The notes beneath the pieces are model-generated. The model was not told the DNA's origin, made no database searches, and saw only the letters and a program-made list of their open reading frames with translations. A DNA stretch of 64,000 nt, from assembly GCA_004297555.1 (NCBI GenBank), contig SCSV01000286.1:1-64000 (forward strand), written 5' to 3'. Below are positions 18,227-28,792 of the stretch, in pieces (the stretch's first letter is position 1; every line of letters starts with the position of its first letter). Source of the stretch: Salinibacterium sp. (GTDB lineage Bacteria > Actinomycetota > Actinomycetes > Actinomycetales > Microbacteriaceae). A program made the translations under genes and the position numbers.

Positions 18227-21200
18227 CTACTGCAGAATCTCGGGCGGGCCGTGGGGGATGCGCAGCTGGAACGGCTTCTCGTGGTGCACGCACTTCTCGT
18301 TCTTCTCGCAGACCACGTCCCAGATGGTGACGTCGTCCTGCACGCCGTCCTTCGCGTATTCGGCGCGCGCCATCTTCCCGCAGGCTTTGCACGAAACGAA
18401 GCAAGGCTTCCAGCGCGAAGGCGCGTTCGGTGCGAGCGGCTCGCAGACGTGCACCTCGACGGGCAGGTACCAGTCGCTGTGCTGCTTGTCCACCGGCTCT
18501 TCGCAGACGCGCTTGAAGACCGGCACGAAGGTGGAACAGCGCTTCTTCGGCACGCCGAACAGCAGCTCGTCGTGCACCTGCACGTGCTGCTCGATGTTCT
18601 CACCTTCGGCACGCATGGGCTCCAACACACGCGTCACCATTCTGCGATTGGCCCTTCCCACAATCGTGGCGCCTCCGCCCTGGAAGCGCATGTTCTGCAT
18701 GCTCTCGGCCTCGGGCGAGCCCTCTTCGCTCCCACGGGCACCTTCGAAGTAGTAGATGCGCCGGCCTGAAATCACCTCGTCCAGATAGCCCTGCTGGATT
18801 CCCTTCAGGACAATGTCGCGCTGGTCCTTGAAGAACTGGGGGTAGCTCTTCTTGTACCGGTCGAAGCAAATGAGGAACGCGTCCCACTTCATGTCCGGCA
18901 TCTCGTCGAGCATCTTCTCGTAGCAGCTCTTCGCTCCGCCGCCGTAGCCAAGCAAGTAGGCGAACACCTTCGCCGCGCGATAGCAGCCGGGGTTCTTCTT
19001 CTCCAAGTCCTTCTCCAGCGGCAAGTCGAAGATGCGACTCGCATTCACAATGTGGGGTTTGAGACCCTTGCCGGCGTCGAACTCCTTGAACATCTGAATC
19101 ATCGCGGAATCACCAGTCACGAGACCGTTGAGCCGCATCTCGAGCGCGCTCCAGTCACCAGTCACGAGGTAGTGCAGCCACGCCGCGATGAACATGCCGC
19201 GGATTTCTCCGGGCTGGTTGGTGAGGTTCGGGTCGGAGCCGCTATTGTGGGAGAAAAATCCCCCTTCAACCTGAAAGCTGTGGTCGCCTTCTACTTCGAG
19301 GTCAACAGTTTCAGCGCATCTGCCAACGTCGACCGCTTCAACATCACACCGAGTGAATCCTTCACCTGGAGGAAGTGAATTTGCCTGTGCCCCTTGACCG
19401 TGACTAGAGCCAAGTTGTCCAGTGTGTTGTCCTTCTTGTCCCCGTTGATGTGATGTACATCCATGCCCCGCGGCAATCTGGAGACGCCTAGGTGCTTCAT
19501 CATCACAACGTGATGGGCAAAGTGACGATGGCCCTTGAAGAGAATCGTCAAGTATCCATAACCGTCCTCGCAAAGTCCCTTCCAACGAGGTGCCTTTTCG
19601 GCCCGCTTTCCCCAATGTGGACTCTTCGGGCCTGACTTCGAGGCCGAGTAACGTAGAGCTGAAAGGGCCCTGATTTCTTCGGTCGGCATCTCCAATCTGA
19701 GGGCTTCGACCACTGTCGCGTACGTGACCTTCAAGGTCTCGGCGATGCTCTCCTTTGTAGGCAAGTTGTGGCTTCTGAATAGTGCTGCTGCCGCCTCCCG
19801 ATTCGATTTTACCGCCAGCCATCTTTTCGAGATGCTCACGAATAGCTCCTGCGGTTACCCACTCCGTTCCGTCGAAGAACTTGTGGTCGATTGTAGAGGT
19901 TAAAACCTGCCCGTTTTGGAGCTTGATGTCAACGACGTCGCGTCTGCCGTTGAAGAACACTCGAGTAACCGGCCTCCATCGGCTCAGATGAGTCCAAACC
20001 TCATCTCCAGCGAGAACATCTCGAGCGCGTACCCACCCCCGATTTCGCGTTCTCACTAGAGTCCAATCCGCAAGGCAGAGTCTCCCCGTCGGCACGACGT
20101 GGATGTTGAAGGTGCCGTGCACGCGCACGTGGAACGGGTCGTTCACGTGCTCCTCGCAGCTACACCAGAGCTTGCCGTGCTCATCCTTCCCATGAGCAAT
20201 CAAATCCGGGTAGAGGTACGTCGACTTCATCTTGGCGCACTCACGCCACGCGAAAAGGAAGTCAAGGAACGCTAGTGCCGGCCCTTTCTCACCACGGGCG
20301 ACGAGTTCTTTGCGCGCGGTGAGCAGGAAGTCTTTTTTGGTGGAGAGGTCACCAGTAGCAGTCTGCTGGGTGAGGGGGACTCCCAGGTGTCTGAGCAACA
20401 GCCTTAGCTGCGCAAGGCTCGCCGGGTTGAAAATAGCAGCGGCTTCGTCGGCGTCGGCTTCGTCGTACTCGGCTTCATCGTGGTCCTTCTTGAACGAGCC
20501 CTTGTTCCCCTTGCTCAGCTTCTCCTGTAGCACGGACAACAGCTCTTCGAGCTGCTCATGCTTCTTGGCGCTCTTCTCACTCTTGAGCAGCTCCTTCTCC
20601 AGCAGCTCGCGCATCGAAGCCAGCGCCTTTTCCTGCTTGGACCCATATTCTTCTCTGAAAAGCTCGACCGCGCGCCAATCGACTGGAAAGCCAACGCGCT
20701 TCCAGCGCTGGGCCTGCTCCTCGTACCAGCTGTCGTGCTCATAGAGCGCGACGTCTTCCTTGCGGAGCTTAATCTCCTCGCGCAAGTTGGTGCACGCGGT
20801 GTACTGCACCACGACGTCGTCACATGCGTACTCCCACAGTTCATAATCAGACGATGCAGACCACGCGTCTCCCTCCTCCGTCGTCTTGTAGTACGGCACC
20901 TCGGTCTCGGTACTACCGATGAAGTTCAGGTTGTGAGGGAAGAACGACGTGACGATGTGATGGGCGATGATGCTGTCGAAGTTGCCCGGCTTGTTCGCCG
21001 ATGGAATCTCCAGTCGCTTAGCGAGCCGCCGTACCTTCGAGCGCCGCTTCACTTCCGTCGGCACGGCAGTGGTGTCGCGCAGCTCCAGACACTGACGGTC
21101 GTACTGACCGTTCTGCGTCTCGAGCATGCAGACGTCGAACACCTCCTGCATCCCTTCGTACACCCGCTCTTCCTGGTCGGGTGTCCACCAGGGCAACCAG

Positions 21201-21781
21201 TTGGCCTTCTTCTCGACACCGCGCTTGTTCTCGTTTGGCCACTTTCCGGCGCGGCACATGTAGCAGCGGGGCTGCCGGTACTTGCCGCCGTAGCGCCAAC
21301 CGAACCAGTAGGCGACGTTGCCGGCGACAGGCTTGCCGTTCGCTCCGTGCTTGCAGTTGGGATTCACACAGACCGCGTGCTCTCCATCATCCTCGTCCCA
21401 TGCCCACTTCTTCTCGGTCCAGGTGCCGTCACGGTAGAGGAAGGGAACGCAGATGGTGGTCTGGCCATCGTGGAAGGCGATGCAGCGCACCGCGCACTTG
21501 TACGGGTGGCCTCCGTCAGTCTCGATGTCGTAGCTGACCCGACGTCCCTTCTTCGCCATCGCCTTGAGCACCCGGAGAACGGTCTTGAGGCTCGGTCCGA
21601 TGATGTAGCGCGACCTGTCCCAGCGGGGTTTCCATTCTCTCCTGGCGAGCTTGAGCAGGCGCGCCATGTCGACCTTGAGAACGAGCCCCTCGAACTTCCG
21701 CTTGTCCCGGCCGATGTATGCGGGGTGGAACGTGGGGACACTCCACTCCACCAGTTGGAGGTCTGAGGTTGCGGCAGCCAC
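18227..21781 (-). CDS. Family A DNA polymerase, interrupted by an intein
   Basis: Exo I VSYDIET; motif A GDWSALEMR; motif B RAAKVFAYLLGYGGG; motif C VHDELLFG. Splicing would restore TGRL|SGSDPNLTNQP. Confidence 0.92.
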   Translation of the reverse strand: MAAATSDLQLVEWSVPTFHPAYIGRDKRKFEGLVLKVDMARLLKLARREWKPRWDRSRYIIGPSLKTVLRVLKAMAKKGRRVSYDIETDGGHPYKCAVRCIAFHDGQTTICVPFLYRDGTWTEKKWAWDEDDGEHAVCVNPNCKHGANGKPVAGNVAYWFGWRYGGKYRQPRCYMCRAGKWPNENKRGVEKKANWLPWWTPDQEERVYEGMQEVFDVCMLETQNGQYDRQCLELRDTTAVPTEVKRRSKVRRLAKRLEIPSANKPGNFDSIIAHHIVTSFFPHNLNFIGSTETEVPYYKTTEEGDAWSASSDYELWEYACDDVVVQYTACTNLREEIKLRKEDVALYEHDSWYEEQAQRWKRVGFPVDWRAVELFREEYGSKQEKALASMRELLEKELLKSEKSAKKHEQLEELLSVLQEKLSKGNKGSFKKDHDEAEYDEADADEAAAIFNPASLAQLRLLLRHLGVPLTQQTATGDLSTKKDFLLTARKELVARGEKGPALAFLDFLFAWRECAKMKSTYLYPDLIAHGKDEHGKLWCSCEEHVNDPFHVRVHGTFNIHVVPTGRLCLADWTLVRTRNRGWVRARDVLAGDEVWTHLSRWRPVTRVFFNGRRDVVDIKLQNGQVLTSTIDHKFFDGTEWVTAGAIREHLEKMAGGKIESGGGSSTIQKPQLAYKGEHRRDLEGHVRDSGRSPQIGDADRRNQGPFSSTLLGLEVRPEESTLGKAGRKGTSLEGTLRGRLWILDDSLQGPSSLCPSRCDDEAPRRLQIAAGHGCTSHQRGQEGQHTGQLGSSHGQGAQANSLPPGEGFTRCDVEAVDVGRCAETVDLEVEGDHSFQVEGGFFSHNSGSDPNLTNQPGEIRGMFIAAWLHYLVTGDWSALEMRLNGLVTGDSAMIQMFKEFDAGKGLKPHIVNASRIFDLPLEKDLEKKNPGCYRAAKVFAYLLGYGGGAKSCYEKMLDEMPDMKWDAFLICFDRYKKSYPQFFKDQRDIVLKGIQQGYLDEVISGRRIYYFEGARGSEEGSPEAESMQNMRFQGGGATIVGRANRRMVTRVLEPMRAEGENIEQHVQVHDELLFGVPKKRCSTFVPVFKRVCEEPVDKQHSDWYLPVEVHVCEPLAPNAPSRWKPCFVSCKACGKMARAEYAKDGVQDDVTIWDVVCEKNEKCVHHEKPFQLRIPHGPPEILQ
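19244..20077 (-). mobile_element. Intein in DNA polymerase (278 aa), HNH endonuclease encoded out of frame inside it
   Basis: Starts CLADWTLVRTRNRGWVRARDVLAGDEV; block B-like GQVLTSTIDHKFF; ends VDLEVEGDHSFQVEGGFFSHN|S; no endonuclease motif in the intein frame. Confidence 0.88.
19291..19839 (-). CDS. HNH homing endonuclease nested in an alternative frame within the polymerase intein
   Basis: GMDVHHINGDKKDNTLDNLALVTVKGHRQIHF is HNH; GTG start with AGGAG 6 nt upstream (AGGAGctattcGTG); frame differs from the polymerase by 1 nt. Confidence 0.85.
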   Translation of the reverse strand: MSISKRWLAVKSNREAAAALFRSHNLPTKESIAETLKVTYATVVEALRLEMPTEEIRALSALRYSASKSGPKSPHWGKRAEKAPRWKGLCEDGYGYLTILFKGHRHFAHHVVMMKHLGVSRLPRGMDVHHINGDKKDNTLDNLALVTVKGHRQIHFLQVKDSLGVMLKRSTLADALKLLTSK

Positions 21782-22544: not shown

Positions 22545-22822
22545 GTCTTCACCTCGCTTCCGCTGCCTGCTTTCCAGGCAATTTCTTTCAGCACGCACGC
22601 CGCGTGCGCCGCCAGCTCATCGACAGTCCATCGGTACTTGATGGAGTCCTCTGGTGTCGCCAGCTCGTTGTCGAGCAACTCCACCACGCGTCGCATCCGG
22701 GCTCGAAGCGCTTCGACAGTCGCCTTCCTCAACGTCTCGTCCAGAGTGCCCTGCTCCAGCTGACGCTCCATCTCCAGCGCGAAGCTGAGCACTGGGGCCG
22801 GGAGTCCGACGTTGAGCCTCAT
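22541..22822 (-). CDS. Hypothetical protein
   Basis: MRLNVGLPAPVLSFALEMERQ..; 4-nt overlap with helicase end. Confidence 0.4.
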   Translation of the reverse strand: MRLNVGLPAPVLSFALEMERQLEQGTLDETLRKATVEALRARMRRVVELLDNELATPEDSIKYRWTVDELAAHAACVLKEIAWKAGSGSEVKT

Positions 22823-25800
22823 ACTGCTTCCTCTTGCCCGGACGATTGGCCCACGAGGCTGACCGCTTCCTTCACCCACGGGGGCACCATGGAGACCTTT
22901 CGGTTCATCTCCTCCATGAACTCCTTGTCGAAGATGTACGTGACGCTTTCGTCGGACTCCGAGTTACCAGCGATGAACGTCTTACAGTTCCGGCGAACGA
23001 TTACAGAGCCTAGTTCTGTCGTCGGGCACCAAACCTTTGTGACCGGCCCAGGAGAGATGTTCGCCGCACGCGTGACATCGCTCGTTGCAGGGTTTACGAA
23101 ATTCACGCAGAGCTGTTCTTTGCGCAAGTCATTTGCACTCCGATGGACGGTGATGCTGCTGCGGAATCCGCAGAGCACGAGCAGTTCCTGTAGTTGGTCC
23201 GCAAGAATTCGGTCTGAAGTCCAGTACGAACCATTCGTGTGGAGAGGAGAGCGCCGGCTGGGGCCCCGCGAAGACCCGTCAGATTCCATCATTCCTTCGA
23301 GTAGAGAAAGAAGCCTGGATGGGTCTGCGTTCTCCAGAGCCCACCGAGGGATTCGCTTCTCCGGGTTCTTCCAACCGTCCACCGTGGCCTTTTCTCCGTG
23401 GGCGTAGCTCTGATGTTGCTTGTGCCTGAAGGACCTCTTCTTCGAGTACCTACGACGCTGACCGAACGCGAATACGTCTCGAATGTGAGAGGCGTCCTTG
23501 CCAGAGAACACCCACATAGCGACTGGGCCATTTCTCTCGTACCCGAAGCATGAACCTGCCTCCTTCCCTTCGTAGTACCCAAAGTTCAATTTCAGGTGAG
23601 CTAGAATCTCAACGAGCTTCTTTCTCTGACTCGCTTGTGAGTCAGCCAGCGACTGGTAGATGGTAACGGTGTTTTTGGTCCTGCTTAAATGGCCGTCACC
23701 AATGATGAAGCCCATCAACCAAAACCATGCATCGTCGAGCTTCGTCTGAGGTCTGTCGATTGCCCACCCCCCGCACGGGAGATTGAAGCGCGCCGGGAGG
23801 TCCCGCGCAGGGATGACCGTTAGCCCTTTAGTCTTACGTATGTAGAGCCACTTTTGTACATACGTTTTTCCGTTTCTATTCGTTGTGCCGGTCATCACCT
23901 TGAATGTCTTCACCTGCGCCAGCATTCTATGGTCAGGCGTCACAACGGCATCGACGGCATTCGTTTTGATGTTGACCGTCTGCTCTGGTAGCTCTGGGCG
24001 ATTGACGTCCAATACCTTGTTCTCCACTACCGGCAATCGACCACACCGGAACGGCCGTGCATTCTTCTCGAAAGCGGATTTCGGGACTCCATAGACGGTG
24101 TCTCCCGGCTGAAGTTCCGTTCCGCTCTTCCATCCCATAGTGGTAAGAATCTCGGTGTCGTAGTCGAAGCAGCGATTGCTACGCCCGAGCCCTTGAATGA
24201 GCTTGGTGAAGGTGAGCCAGCGGTACCATGCCGGGTCGACTTTCGCGCGCGCCTTGATTTGGCCGTGCCACATCGGCCTGGGAGCCGCGGGGATTATCTG
24301 GAACCGAGAGAGGTCACCGTGCAGGTCGGCACCCTCCCAATAGCCAGACGCGGCCAGAACTGTCGGTCCTCGACTCAGCACGTGCTCCCGGTACTTGGCT
24401 TCGCGGTCTCGTCCGTAAGCGAAGATGAGGCGCATGCGGTTGCTCTTCGACACGTTGTCGGAGATGAACTTGAGCATCTCGTTCGAGGGACAGAGCAGCA
24501 GTCCCTTCTCTCGCTGGTGATGATTCATCAACCCATCGACGAGTTGTGCGGCGCGCGCCCAGCCAAATTCTCGGTTGCTCTTCCGCATGTCGAGCGGCAC
24601 CACCTTGATGGGCCGGTTGGCGACCGGGAAGACGCTGCCCATCTGCACGAAGTCGCCTTTGGCCAAATCCAAGCCGATGTTGGTGCAGAGCTGACCGGCA
24701 TCGAGCACGGTGGCGCTCATGAAGAGGCACTTCTTACCGTGTCCCCAGAGCCAGTGGCCGTACTCGTGAACACGCAGTGGCTTGACGGCGAACCAGTCGG
24801 GTCGAAGCGTCCCGTCGTTTTCGCGGCCGCGCTCGATGACGTAGTCGATGGACGCGTTCGCCGCTTTCGCCTTCTCCACCTTGGCCAACACGAATCCGAT
24901 GCGGCGAATCAGAGAGCGCATCTCCTCCTTCTCTTGTGCATCGGTGAGTACCTTCTCGCGCGTTCGCAGATTCGGCAGTGCGTTCTTCATCCACGTGAGG
25001 TACGGCTCGAGGCTGTCTTCGGTCGCCGGAAGCGGGTCAGTCTTCACTCCGAGCTTGCGCAGGTTGACGCTCACCCCCGTCTGGTCGAGCAGGAACGACT
25101 CGATGACGTGTGCCTCGTCGAGGACCATGAAGGGGCGCTTCACAGCCGAGGCGCTCTTCTTGGTTCGCTCCTCAACCGCATTGAGCAGCTGTTCTCCCTC
25201 CAGCTCTTCGGTCTCGCTGTCGTTCTCGCTGGTGTCGTACATCGCGGCTTGCCCGATGTTTGAGAGGAACGAGTGGTAGTTCGACATCATGAAGGTACTG
25301 TTGAACGCGGTCTGCTTGCCGAACAGGTACGGACACGCCGCGGAGTCGTGCGGCATCGGTGGGTCCTTGGCCAACGGGTCAGGTGGGCCGTAGCAAGCAT
25401 CCTCTCCGCCGAACAACTCCTTGCCGATGAGGCAGGATTCCCCAGCGCGCTTGCACTCGTACTTTCCTCGTCCCTTCAGGACGCGCATGTTCATCGGAGC
25501 GGCGAACTCCGTCATGTACTGCTCCTGCAGTTGGGCGGTGAGGGTGGTGAAGTACGAGCGCGGACCGTAGGCGTTTGCCAACGCCACGCCAATGAGCGAT
25601 TTGCCGCACCCCGGAGGCGCCTCCAAGACGACGTAGTCGACGCCGTTCTCGTATGCCTCGATGCAGCGGCGAATCGCCTCGACCTGGATGTCTCGCGGCT
25701 TCTTCTTGACAAGCGCGAACACCTTGAGCGCCTTGTCGAGGAGCTTGGCGACTGCCGATGAGGGCGCTGGCGACGACGGCAGGTTCACTTCCACGAAGGT

Positions 25801-26001
25801 CTCGTTGGCAAATGCCGCCGGGACGCCGAACTTAATTCCTTCTCCGGCTGCTGCCTTCGCCGCACGTTTCGCCTCCCGCTCGTCGAACTTCTTCTTCGCA
25901 CGTGCTTTCGACTTGGTCGTCTTCTTCGCGCGTTTCGAAGGGGTCACGTCCCGGTCGTCAACGCAGTCCGGGCAACCGGGGCATCCGTTCCAGCAACTCA
26001 T
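22819..26001 (-). CDS. DinG/XPD-type SF2 helicase with Fe-S-like Cys cluster, interrupted by an intein
   Basis: Walker A APPGCGKS; DEAH; Cys set KYECKRAGESC...ACY...SAACPY; motif VI QGLGRSNR|SESDE interrupted by the intein. Confidence 0.85.
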   Translation of the reverse strand: MSCWNGCPGCPDCVDDRDVTPSKRAKKTTKSKARAKKKFDEREAKRAAKAAAGEGIKFGVPAAFANETFVEVNLPSSPAPSSAVAKLLDKALKVFALVKKKPRDIQVEAIRRCIEAYENGVDYVVLEAPPGCGKSLIGVALANAYGPRSYFTTLTAQLQEQYMTEFAAPMNMRVLKGRGKYECKRAGESCLIGKELFGGEDACYGPPDPLAKDPPMPHDSAACPYLFGKQTAFNSTFMMSNYHSFLSNIGQAAMYDTSENDSETEELEGEQLLNAVEERTKKSASAVKRPFMVLDEAHVIESFLLDQTGVSVNLRKLGVKTDPLPATEDSLEPYLTWMKNALPNLRTREKVLTDAQEKEEMRSLIRRIGFVLAKVEKAKAANASIDYVIERGRENDGTLRPDWFAVKPLRVHEYGHWLWGHGKKCLFMSATVLDAGQLCTNIGLDLAKGDFVQMGSVFPVANRPIKVVPLDMRKSNREFGWARAAQLVDGLMNHHQREKGLLLCPSNEMLKFISDNVSKSNRMRLIFAYGRDREAKYREHVLSRGPTVLAASGYWEGADLHGDLSRFQIIPAAPRPMWHGQIKARAKVDPAWYRWLTFTKLIQGLGRSNRCFDYDTEILTTMGWKSGTELQPGDTVYGVPKSAFEKNARPFRCGRLPVVENKVLDVNRPELPEQTVNIKTNAVDAVVTPDHRMLAQVKTFKVMTGTTNRNGKTYVQKWLYIRKTKGLTVIPARDLPARFNLPCGGWAIDRPQTKLDDAWFWLMGFIIGDGHLSRTKNTVTIYQSLADSQASQRKKLVEILAHLKLNFGYYEGKEAGSCFGYERNGPVAMWVFSGKDASHIRDVFAFGQRRRYSKKRSFRHKQHQSYAHGEKATVDGWKNPEKRIPRWALENADPSRLLSLLEGMMESDGSSRGPSRRSPLHTNGSYWTSDRILADQLQELLVLCGFRSSITVHRSANDLRKEQLCVNFVNPATSDVTRAANISPGPVTKVWCPTTELGSVIVRRNCKTFIAGNSESDESVTYIFDKEFMEEMNRKVSMVPPWVKEAVSLVGQSSGQEEAV
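22963..24171 (-). mobile_element. Intein with LAGLIDADG endonuclease in the helicase (403 aa)
   Basis: C1 in CFDYDTEILTTMGWKSGTELQPGDTV; AVVTPDHRMLA; LMGFIIGDGHLS and LLEGMMESDGSS; ends KTFIAGN|S. Confidence 0.9.
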
Positions 26002-26231
26002 TGGGCGGCCTGCTTCCGCTTCGCGTACCGAATCTGTGCCCTGGTCATGCACTTGCGACAGCGCAGGTAACCGGTAGCGTTGAACACGCCGTACTTTTTG
26101 CTCGGATGACCATGACTGCAGGAGGCACGCGAAAGCACCGCGTGGCCGCTCATGACGCGCACGTAACCGGGCATCCCGGGAACTTGAGAGGCCTTCTTTG
26201 CGCGCTGGTACTTCTGCTTGGACGTGGTCAT
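25998..26231 (-). CDS. Small zinc-finger protein resembling an HNH C-terminal tail
   Basis: CSHGHPSKKYGVFNATGYLRCRKCMTRAQIRYAKRK; compare CANGHPLTDETTYVSPRGKRSCREC in the HNH at 41025..41492. Confidence 0.5.
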   Translation of the reverse strand: MTTSKQKYQRAKKASQVPGMPGYVRVMSGHAVLSRASCSHGHPSKKYGVFNATGYLRCRKCMTRAQIRYAKRKQAAQ

Positions 26232-26458
26232 TTTCTCCCCAATCGTTTCCGCAAATCATCCAACGCATCTGCCCAGGTCATCCCGGCGGTGATGGCCACG
26301 AAGTTTTTGCCGCGTCCGGTTCCCACCAGGAACCGGTACGGGGTGAAGTCGGCCGACGAAGGTACGACCGGCAACTCCTTCACTTCGCCGTTCGACGAAC
26401 GCAGGAGCTTGCGGACTTCCCTTCTTGCTTGCTCATAAGTCACGTGACACTCCTCCAC
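26228..26458 (-). CDS. Hypothetical protein
   Basis: ORF between neighbours. Confidence 0.4.
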   Translation of the reverse strand: MEECHVTYEQARREVRKLLRSSNGEVKELPVVPSSADFTPYRFLVGTGRGKNFVAITAGMTWADALDDLRKRLGRK

Positions 26459-26910: not shown

Positions 26911-27122
26911 ACGAGCTTCGCCTGCGTTGCCCACCAAAGGCTCACAATGAGGGTTCCTTCGTGTCCCGATTCGAACACCTCCGAGTCTTCGTGGATTTGA
27001 CTGACGGGTACCCAGGTGTCGGAACCTTCTTTCAGTCCGCTGCAGAGCAGAGCCTTGCCGCTGTCGCTGAACTTCAGTGCCTTCACGCCTTCGAACTCGG
27101 CCTTGTTGTCGGTGTTCGTCAT
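26907..27122 (-). CDS. Hypothetical protein
   Basis: MTNTDNKAEFEGVKALKFSDSG...; 4-nt overlaps on both sides. Confidence 0.5.
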   Translation of the reverse strand: MTNTDNKAEFEGVKALKFSDSGKALLCSGLKEGSDTWVPVSQIHEDSEVFESGHEGTLIVSLWWATQAKLV

Positions 27123-28792
27123 TTGTGTCCTTTCCTCGGTGGAAGTCCTTCGCCCATGCCACTGGGCGGTTTCGTCAGCTCCGGTACGGCATAGCTCCAG
27201 CGCGGGATGATGCCCATCAAGCGCTCCCGCCGCTCCTTCATGTTTTCCACGTAACCGCGGTGAGCGGTGATGCCGCTGAACCCGAGCGTCGACTCCAACG
27301 CGAAGTTGCCCATCTGCTGCCACGCGCGCGCGCTGACAAAGCCCTCCTTAGCCATCTGCTTGTAGATGGGAAGGATGCGCGGACTCTTGCAGATGCAGAG
27401 GTGCTTGTCGGGGCCTCTGAGATAGCGCGGGTGTTCGGCGGTAGAGCACGTCTCGCACCTCGGGATGCGCAACTGGGACATCAGGCGCGGTCTGCAGCAG
27501 TCGACCGGGTGATTGAAGGAGAGGACCTCTTCCTTCTTCTTGCCCTTCTGCTCTGTCTTGTGTTGCTTGCGCGCTACTTGGAGGAACAATTTCAGGTCGC
27601 CGCCGGGGGGAAAGCACAAGATGGAGTTGTCAATCCATACTTGCGAGCGCTTCAGATTGTGGCGCGTGAGCCAGTTTTCGAAAGTACGGCCAGAGCGACC
27701 ACAGTTGTGCACCACGTACCCGTTAGCGATAAACGTCCCACACGTAGTGGTGATGTCGACTACCTCGCGTACTCCGAGAGGAGTACGCCGAAGGACGCGT
27801 GGCCGATTCATCGACGCCCATCGCGCTCCCATTCCGTCACGCATCAAGACAGCACGGAAATTGGAGAGGAGACGCTTAGGGCGGACGGTTCCGAGAAGCT
27901 TTACAGCTTCGGTGAATCCGCCGCGTAGGTAGCGTTTGGCATTTGCTACGCCCTTCACACGCTGAATCTCAGAGCGTCCAAACTTGAATCCGAGCTGGTC
28001 GAAAAGTTCACTGACATGGTCGAGCGTCGACCCGACATTCTGCGCGAAGCCGAGAATGGTTCCGCGCTTTTTCGTAGGACCTCTAGTTCCCCCAACGTGC
28101 CCCTCACCATCAAGGAACCCGGCAAGGTAACCGAAGTCGTATCCCGTCGGAGGCGCCCATGGCGCGAACGGTCGAACGAGGCGAGAGCTGCGCATTGCGG
28201 TGATACCTGACTCCGCTTGGAGCTTTCTGTACCCACTTCGGTATCCGTCCCACTGTTGCATTTGGTCGACACGAACCCAAGCTTGCGAAGCGCCTTTCAT
28301 ACTTCCGTTGAGGAACTGGTGGTCAGCTGACGAAATGATGGAACCGCCATCCGACGTGTCGACCTGGAAGACTTCCGCGACGCGACGGACAACGTTGGTT
28401 ACAACACCAGCGGTCCATCGACGTGCACCTCTCGACGTTAAATTGCGATGCCCGTCAGGACGCTCAGGTCCATTCTCGGTTACGCCCAGAATCTCATCAC
28501 CGACCTTCAGGTCGCCGAGCGGTTTCCATTCCAGCATCCCAGTAAGTACGAGCGTCTCTGGGACCAAACAGAATGGAATACCCACCGCAACCTCATCCCG
28601 ACCCGGCGCTTCACCGATGAACGCAACGAGCGCGTCACGTGGACCGTCTCCCCAGACCGGCTCTTGACCGTTCAGCGGACACTGGTCGCACTTCGCGCCC
28701 CACTTGCGCGGGTCATCGGAGCGGAAGCCCCAACTGGTCGGTGGCGTCTGGCGGTGGTCGACCTTCGACTCGCCGTAGATTCCCTCACGCAT
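27119..28792 (-). CDS. Uracil-DNA glycosylase superfamily protein, interrupted by an intein
   Basis: FIGEAPGRDEVAVGIPF|CGRSGRTFENWL after removal; extra Cys (CDQCPL; CETCSTAEHPRYLRGPDKHLCIC). Confidence 0.82.
   Translation of the reverse strand: MREGIYGESKVDHRQTPPTSWGFRSDDPRKWGAKCDQCPLNGQEPVWGDGPRDALVAFIGEAPGRDEVAVGIPFCLVPETLVLTGMLEWKPLGDLKVGDEILGVTENGPERPDGHRNLTSRGARRWTAGVVTNVVRRVAEVFQVDTSDGGSIISSADHQFLNGSMKGASQAWVRVDQMQQWDGYRSGYRKLQAESGITAMRSSRLVRPFAPWAPPTGYDFGYLAGFLDGEGHVGGTRGPTKKRGTILGFAQNVGSTLDHVSELFDQLGFKFGRSEIQRVKGVANAKRYLRGGFTEAVKLLGTVRPKRLLSNFRAVLMRDGMGARWASMNRPRVLRRTPLGVREVVDITTTCGTFIANGYVVHNCGRSGRTFENWLTRHNLKRSQVWIDNSILCFPPGGDLKLFLQVARKQHKTEQKGKKKEEVLSFNHPVDCCRPRLMSQLRIPRCETCSTAEHPRYLRGPDKHLCICKSPRILPIYKQMAKEGFVSARAWQQMGNFALESTLGFSGITAHRGYVENMKERRERLMGIIPRWSYAVPELTKPPSGMGEGLPPRKGHK
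27704..28570 (-). mobile_element. Intein with LAGLIDADG-type motif in UDG (289 aa)
   Basis: C1 in CLVPETLVLTGMLEWKPLGDLKVGDEI; SSADHQFL; YLAGFLDGEGHV; ends TCGTFIANGYVVHN|C. Confidence 0.9.

Follow-up and report, generated by a model that had tools for sequence, protein, structure and literature searches.

Can the homing endonuclease of an intein be encoded outside the frame of the intein itself? To our knowledge, mobile inteins are taken to have the endonuclease built into the precursor, in the same frame. The question is raised by a 64,000 nt stretch of DNA assigned to Salinibacterium sp. (contig SCSV01000286.1, here called the window), a phage contig within a metagenome-assembled genome of 425 contigs; the contig encodes the large terminase subunit, a helicase, a primase and a polymerase. 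The family A DNA polymerase gene (polA) of this phage contains an intein, and a first-pass annotation had proposed that the intein DNA also holds an independent, out-of-frame HNH gene. That reading holds and was strengthened by about 30 homologous loci; very probably, the intein of polA shares its DNA, in two frames, with an HNH homing endonuclease of I-HmuI-like type, and the two spread together. Computational support comes from both open reading frames (ORFs), the splicing residues, the folds, stop avoidance, conservation of the start and Shine-Dalgarno (SD) sequence, co-inheritance, and transfer between unrelated polymerases.

Two reading frames in the polA intein

The polymerase frame (18227-21781(-)) is free of stops across the whole 278-aa intein, which is inserted between TGRL and SGSDPN, making serine the first C-extein residue. 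The intein has the features of class 1, namely a C1 nucleophile, the block B T..H, block F, a C-terminal HN and S/C at +1, and its N-part was matched by the Mtu RecA intein (E=2.3e-5). The coordinates and the N- and C-terminal splicing blocks of the first-pass annotation were right, and in the alignment with homologues that it had suggested, C1, T62, H65, D259, H277 and N278 were invariant in 19 inteins. An AlphaFold2 model of the window intein, made from the 19 intein sequences, gave a mean predicted local distance difference test (pLDDT) score of >90 for residues 1-80 and 251-270, and of <50 for most of residues 90-230. Foldseek matched this model to the NpuDnaE intein over both halves (E=2.6e-6, template modelling score for the target 0.77) and to other inteins, and a Hint fold is predicted. 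The Pfam intein model PF14890 scored 14.7 bits, below a curated cut-off of 35.8 that is a detection threshold and not a biological criterion; the score is low because the long spacer splits the match. A group I intron was also considered as an explanation for the insert and was ruled out, as no catalytic intron core was found around the ORF with Rfam, there being no match at E up to 5 between 18200 and 21800, nor in 9 related inteins.

In a second frame of the same strand, Pfam identified an HNH_3 match (E=2.9e-12) with the catalytic His-Asn-His present, and the gene proved to be as first annotated in position, GTG start and upstream AGGAG (Table 1). The predicted HNH structure (mean pLDDT 85) consists of a helical N-terminal domain plus an HNH domain, and I-HmuI was its second Foldseek match, with a probability of 0.97 but E=0.046. 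A search across the source genome found only one copy. Annotation of the continuous polymerase ORF in the usual way would miss this nuclease.

Constraint on the polymerase frame was assessed against a null model in which synonymous codons were shuffled within each HNH gene, preserving protein and codon usage. The window HNH gene contains no polymerase-frame stops where 6.1 are expected (P=0.0005), while the third frame contains 14, in agreement with the earlier claim that the polymerase frame must stay open over the HNH gene. The HNH genes of 19 inteins likewise contain none (129.7 expected), as do 13 further genes (82.6 expected), two of which are closely related to members of the earlier set, giving 0 against about 212 for the pooled 32 genes. 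As a control, 18 HNH homologues outside inteins contained 271 stops in the corresponding frame against 248.7 expected; Rfam group I intron matches overlap the HNH genes of L012-L017, L024, L030 and L042 in this set, L034, L041 and L044 have no such match, and the rest lay outside the Rfam test. A natural control was provided by L125, an HNH of the intein lineage adjoining a truncated polA without an intein, with 15 shadow-frame stops. Residue identity of the polymerase frame in the overlap was 23.3%, against 21.6% in a stop-free null, and by far the largest excess fell where the HNH gene ends, over block F (z=10.4), the overlap with a block F-like segment having been noted correctly in the first pass. 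These data suggest that the middle of the intein serves chiefly as a spacer kept free of stops, while the end is truly dual-coded.

An SD sequence of at least 5 nt was found at the proper distance from 12 of 19 HNH starts, compared with 6.3% of background ATG/GTG codons (p=1.4e-10), and most of the HNH genes at these 19 loci begin MS[IV]SK. The HNH ORFs of the inteins, taken alone, are complete and of about the same length as their intron-encoded homologues. The endonuclease could instead be made by programmed ribosomal frameshifting from the intein frame, yielding an N-extein/N-intein/HNH fusion; the HNH start does lie inside the intein N-domain and the relation of the frames is constant at all polA loci. 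The conserved start codon with its following motif, the SD enrichment and the complete stand-alone ORFs are at odds with such a fusion, which is considered improbable.

Under the preferred reading, in which intein and endonuclease are made separately from shared DNA, translation of the polymerase frame would yield a precursor from which the Hint domain (residues 1-89 and 241-278) would be expected to excise itself, joining TGRL to SGSDPN, and the ∼150 residues between its halves would form a disordered, stop-free spacer. Ribosomes would start internally at the HNH start codon, positioned by an SD sequence built from intein codons, and would produce a free endonuclease. Its expected targets would be polA alleles that lack the intein, cleaved within the conserved TGR-x5-PN coding region, and the intein plus the HNH gene would be copied in when the cut allele is repaired. 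The mobility gene would thus be uncoupled from splicing yet locked in place by the overlap, as an indel in the HNH gene also breaks the polymerase.

Table 1. Features of the polymerase gene, its intein and the overlapping HNH gene (positions in the window)
Feature	Position	Strand	Support
Precursor ORF of the phage family A DNA polymerase (1184 aa, intein included)	18227..21781	(-)	PF00476 (DNA_pol_A) E=1.8e-27
N-extein, C-terminal end ...HVVPTGRL	20078..21781	(-)	
Intein, 278 aa, C1...HN (C1 at 20077, N278 at 19244)	19244..20077	(-)	
Intein N-terminal splicing domain, residues 1-89; C1, T62, H65 invariant in 19 inteins	19811..20077	(-)	pLDDT mean >90 over residues 1-80
Shine-Dalgarno AGGAG, 6 nt before HNH start; doubles as intein-coding sequence	19846..19850	(-)	
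HNH endonuclease gene out of frame with the intein; 182 codons, initiated at GTG and ended by TAG; HNH_3 domain preceded by a helical domain	19291..19839	(-)	
HNH catalytic motif DVHHINGDKKDNTLDNLALVT	19399..19461	(-)	
3' end of the HNH gene (∼15 codons), shared with intein block F; both frames conserved (z=10.4)	19291..19335	(-)	
Intein C-terminal splicing domain, residues 241-278; D259, H277, N278 invariant	19244..19357	(-)	19-intein alignment and predicted structure
C-extein, first residues SGSDPNLTNQPGE; polymerase motifs DWSALEMR and VHDELLFG present	18227..19243	(-)	

Recurrence in other phage polymerases

Scans of viral contigs with HNH alignments located the same arrangement on about 30 distinct uncultivated-virus contigs, in diverged polA genes. 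The offset between the polymerase and HNH frames is identical at every polA locus and the third frame is rich in stops. One condition named in the first pass as fatal to its reading was a sequencing indel. That assembly or sequencing indels had moved an in-frame HNH out of frame might be entertained for a window from a 425-contig metagenome-assembled genome. Such a shift would take two errors that compensate each other, since the HNH gene, as in its homologues, begins and ends at codons of its own, and the frame is common to about 30 independent contigs; the probability of this explanation is negligible. The two-in-one design is a conserved mobile element, old and co-inherited, not an accident or a sequencing error, and offers a replicated, clear example of overlapping genes under dual constraint.

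Several points weigh against the reading of a shared, jointly mobile intein and endonuclease. The first 19 loci were recognised partly by their open frame; this was corrected by a search with the intein N-domain alone, which returned 28 contig loci with an intein at the polA site (some near-duplicates). A complete HNH in the same relative frame is present at 26 of them, and an HNH in frame with the intein at none. The SD match is only 4 nt at four of the 19 starts and ≤3 nt at three (L048, L049 and L058), and some HNH genes may use weak or other initiation. The starts of L053, L056 and L062 were picked partly by their SD sequence, which makes the p value for SD enrichment somewhat generous. 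The position of the insertion is not fixed, falling after GR, GRx, GRxx or GRxxx; a spread of as many as three codons is unusual for homing. No empty allele was found among close relatives of the window phage, so that the case for homing at the window locus is indirect. Finally, splicing, internal initiation, cleavage and homing are processes that we infer.

The two exceptions among the 28 loci differ from each other. L175 (4001 onward) retains about the last 50 HNH codons, with the intein and polymerase frame still open, and is interpreted as a decay stage of the homing cycle. L183 (2306-5734) has no HNH; its N-half ends in TAA and its C-half starts with ATG after AGGAGG, and it is apparently a natural split intein at the same polA site.

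Among the best matches listed in tblastn searches of INPHARED, no isolated phage had the same architecture, and the matches examined were intron-encoded HNH genes. The polA ORFs of L018, L048 and L193 are 1556, 2149 and 1627 aa long, and in L018 another segment resembling an intein (NCLDAETEAL...VTGN) lies downstream of the first. In L060 (1-4455) an HNH element breaks polA at the same site, and three more Rfam group I intron matches interrupt the gene downstream. Outside polA, the gene for a Phage_Mu_F-like head protein in L208 (2-1198) contains an intein, and an HNH lies out of frame within about 657-1019. This HNH is of another type (HNH_3 E=1.1e-11), with 0 stops against 5.2 expected, and the locus is apparently an independent origin of the architecture.

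Mobility and the link to group I introns

Across 30 loci, HNH and Hint distances were correlated (Mantel r=0.69, p=0.0005), while no correlation with the polymerase was found for either Hint (0.08, p=0.19) or HNH (-0.01). Mean identities over these loci were 45% for HNH, 39% for Hint and 27% for the C-extein. As HNH and Hint correlate and neither tracks the polymerase, these data suggest that the pair moves as one unit between unrelated polymerases. The first-pass proposal that an HNH gene invaded a mini-intein may describe the founding event of the family; it does not stand as an event in the window phage, where the element is an old, mobile and co-inherited unit.

Of the phage HNH homologues examined, the nearest lie within group I introns of polA, which suggests that one endonuclease lineage serves both an RNA and a protein splicing system. 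Where readable, these introns are inserted after GR-x5-P, and the intein sites lie a few codons away. The intron-bearing genes (Phormidium phage Pf-WMP3, Escherichia phage PhAPEC7 and Acinetobacter phage APK32) share with the window a homologous HNH in the same gene and the same conserved stretch, but differ in that splicing is of RNA (Rfam RF00028), the exons do not form one continuous frame and the second frame is stop-rich. The intron HNHs form one clade (support 99/93), nested inside the intein HNHs in the best tree. Monophyly of the intein HNHs was rejected by the approximately unbiased (AU) test before long branches were dropped (p-AU 0.019) and not rejected afterwards (p-AU 0.28), so that the HNH may have passed between inteins and introns in either direction.

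A broader proposal, in which our confidence falls slightly short of even, is that dual-coded inteins form a class widely distributed among environmental phages, that one endonuclease lineage has changed, at a single polymerase site, between a host that splices protein and one that splices RNA, and that loss of the HNH lets the spacer gain stops and a start and so gives rise to a natural split intein, L175 being the decayed and L183 the split form. One endonuclease family at one site links group I introns with inteins, and a testable route from invaded to split intein is suggested.

Known precedents and other inteins of the window phage

Split inteins may have endonuclease genes between their halves ('fractured genes'), in which case the endonuclease is expressed apart from the intein polypeptide. 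The host gene in the window is by contrast continuous; L183, at the same polA site, is split but lacks an HNH. An ordinary bifunctional intein is that of the cyanophage CL131 dCTP deaminase, with an in-frame HNH_3 (PMC6293099). Inteins of this type resemble the window element in having a Hint domain and an HNH at the usual site between the N and C splicing parts, but their nuclease is part of the intein polypeptide, whereas that of the window is a separate overlapping gene.

A close published likeness is the ShiLan domain, a hidden HNH in an actinophage DNA methylase (PMC11855218, 2025). Both are mobile insertions that leave the host frame open and have an HNH gene in another frame; neither a splicing domain nor a ribosome-binding site is detectable in ShiLan, whereas the window element has a full Hint intein and an SD sequence. 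Out-of-frame HNH insertion as such was therefore not new, a point that the first pass had left open; what ShiLan lacks is the splicing domain. Methylase ORFs at L063, L078, L082, L090 and L129 (the last in a Rhodobacteraceae assembly) lack Hint motifs, and the HNH in them uses the opposite out-of-frame relation. Stop avoidance at these loci is weak (0 observed against 0.4-2.5 expected at each), and they look like the ShiLan type.

Such methylase insertions, with open host frames and no splicing motifs (PMC11855218 and the five loci above), lend some credence to a similar state in the window, in which splicing has been lost, the polymerase either tolerates the insert or is itself no longer functional, and selection acts on the HNH alone. 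This is judged very improbable, given splicing residues that are invariant in 19 diverged inteins, a predicted Hint fold, a replicative polymerase host with an intact family match, and avoidance of polymerase-frame stops throughout.

A 'putative intein-encoded HNH' out of frame was mentioned for a Brucella phage terminase (PMC4422536, 2015), an unsupported statement in the part of the source available, which gives no evidence for a splicing domain. No Brucella phage loci were among the matches listed for a methylase-type HNH query. The only precedents found in the literature were the ShiLan papers (PMC11855218, PMC9957025), the announcement of a phage with a ShiLan-type methylase (PMC12613952) and the Brucella statement; most subscription journals were outside the coverage, so priority is not proven.

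Two further inteins were apparent in the window phage. The helicase ORF (ResIII, Helicase_C_2; 22819-26268(-)) appears to contain an in-frame LAGLIDADG intein of the ordinary bifunctional type, and a uracil-DNA glycosylase-like ORF (27119-28792(-)) an apparent third intein (GIPF/C...VVHN/CGRSG) with a weak LAGLIDADG match inside.
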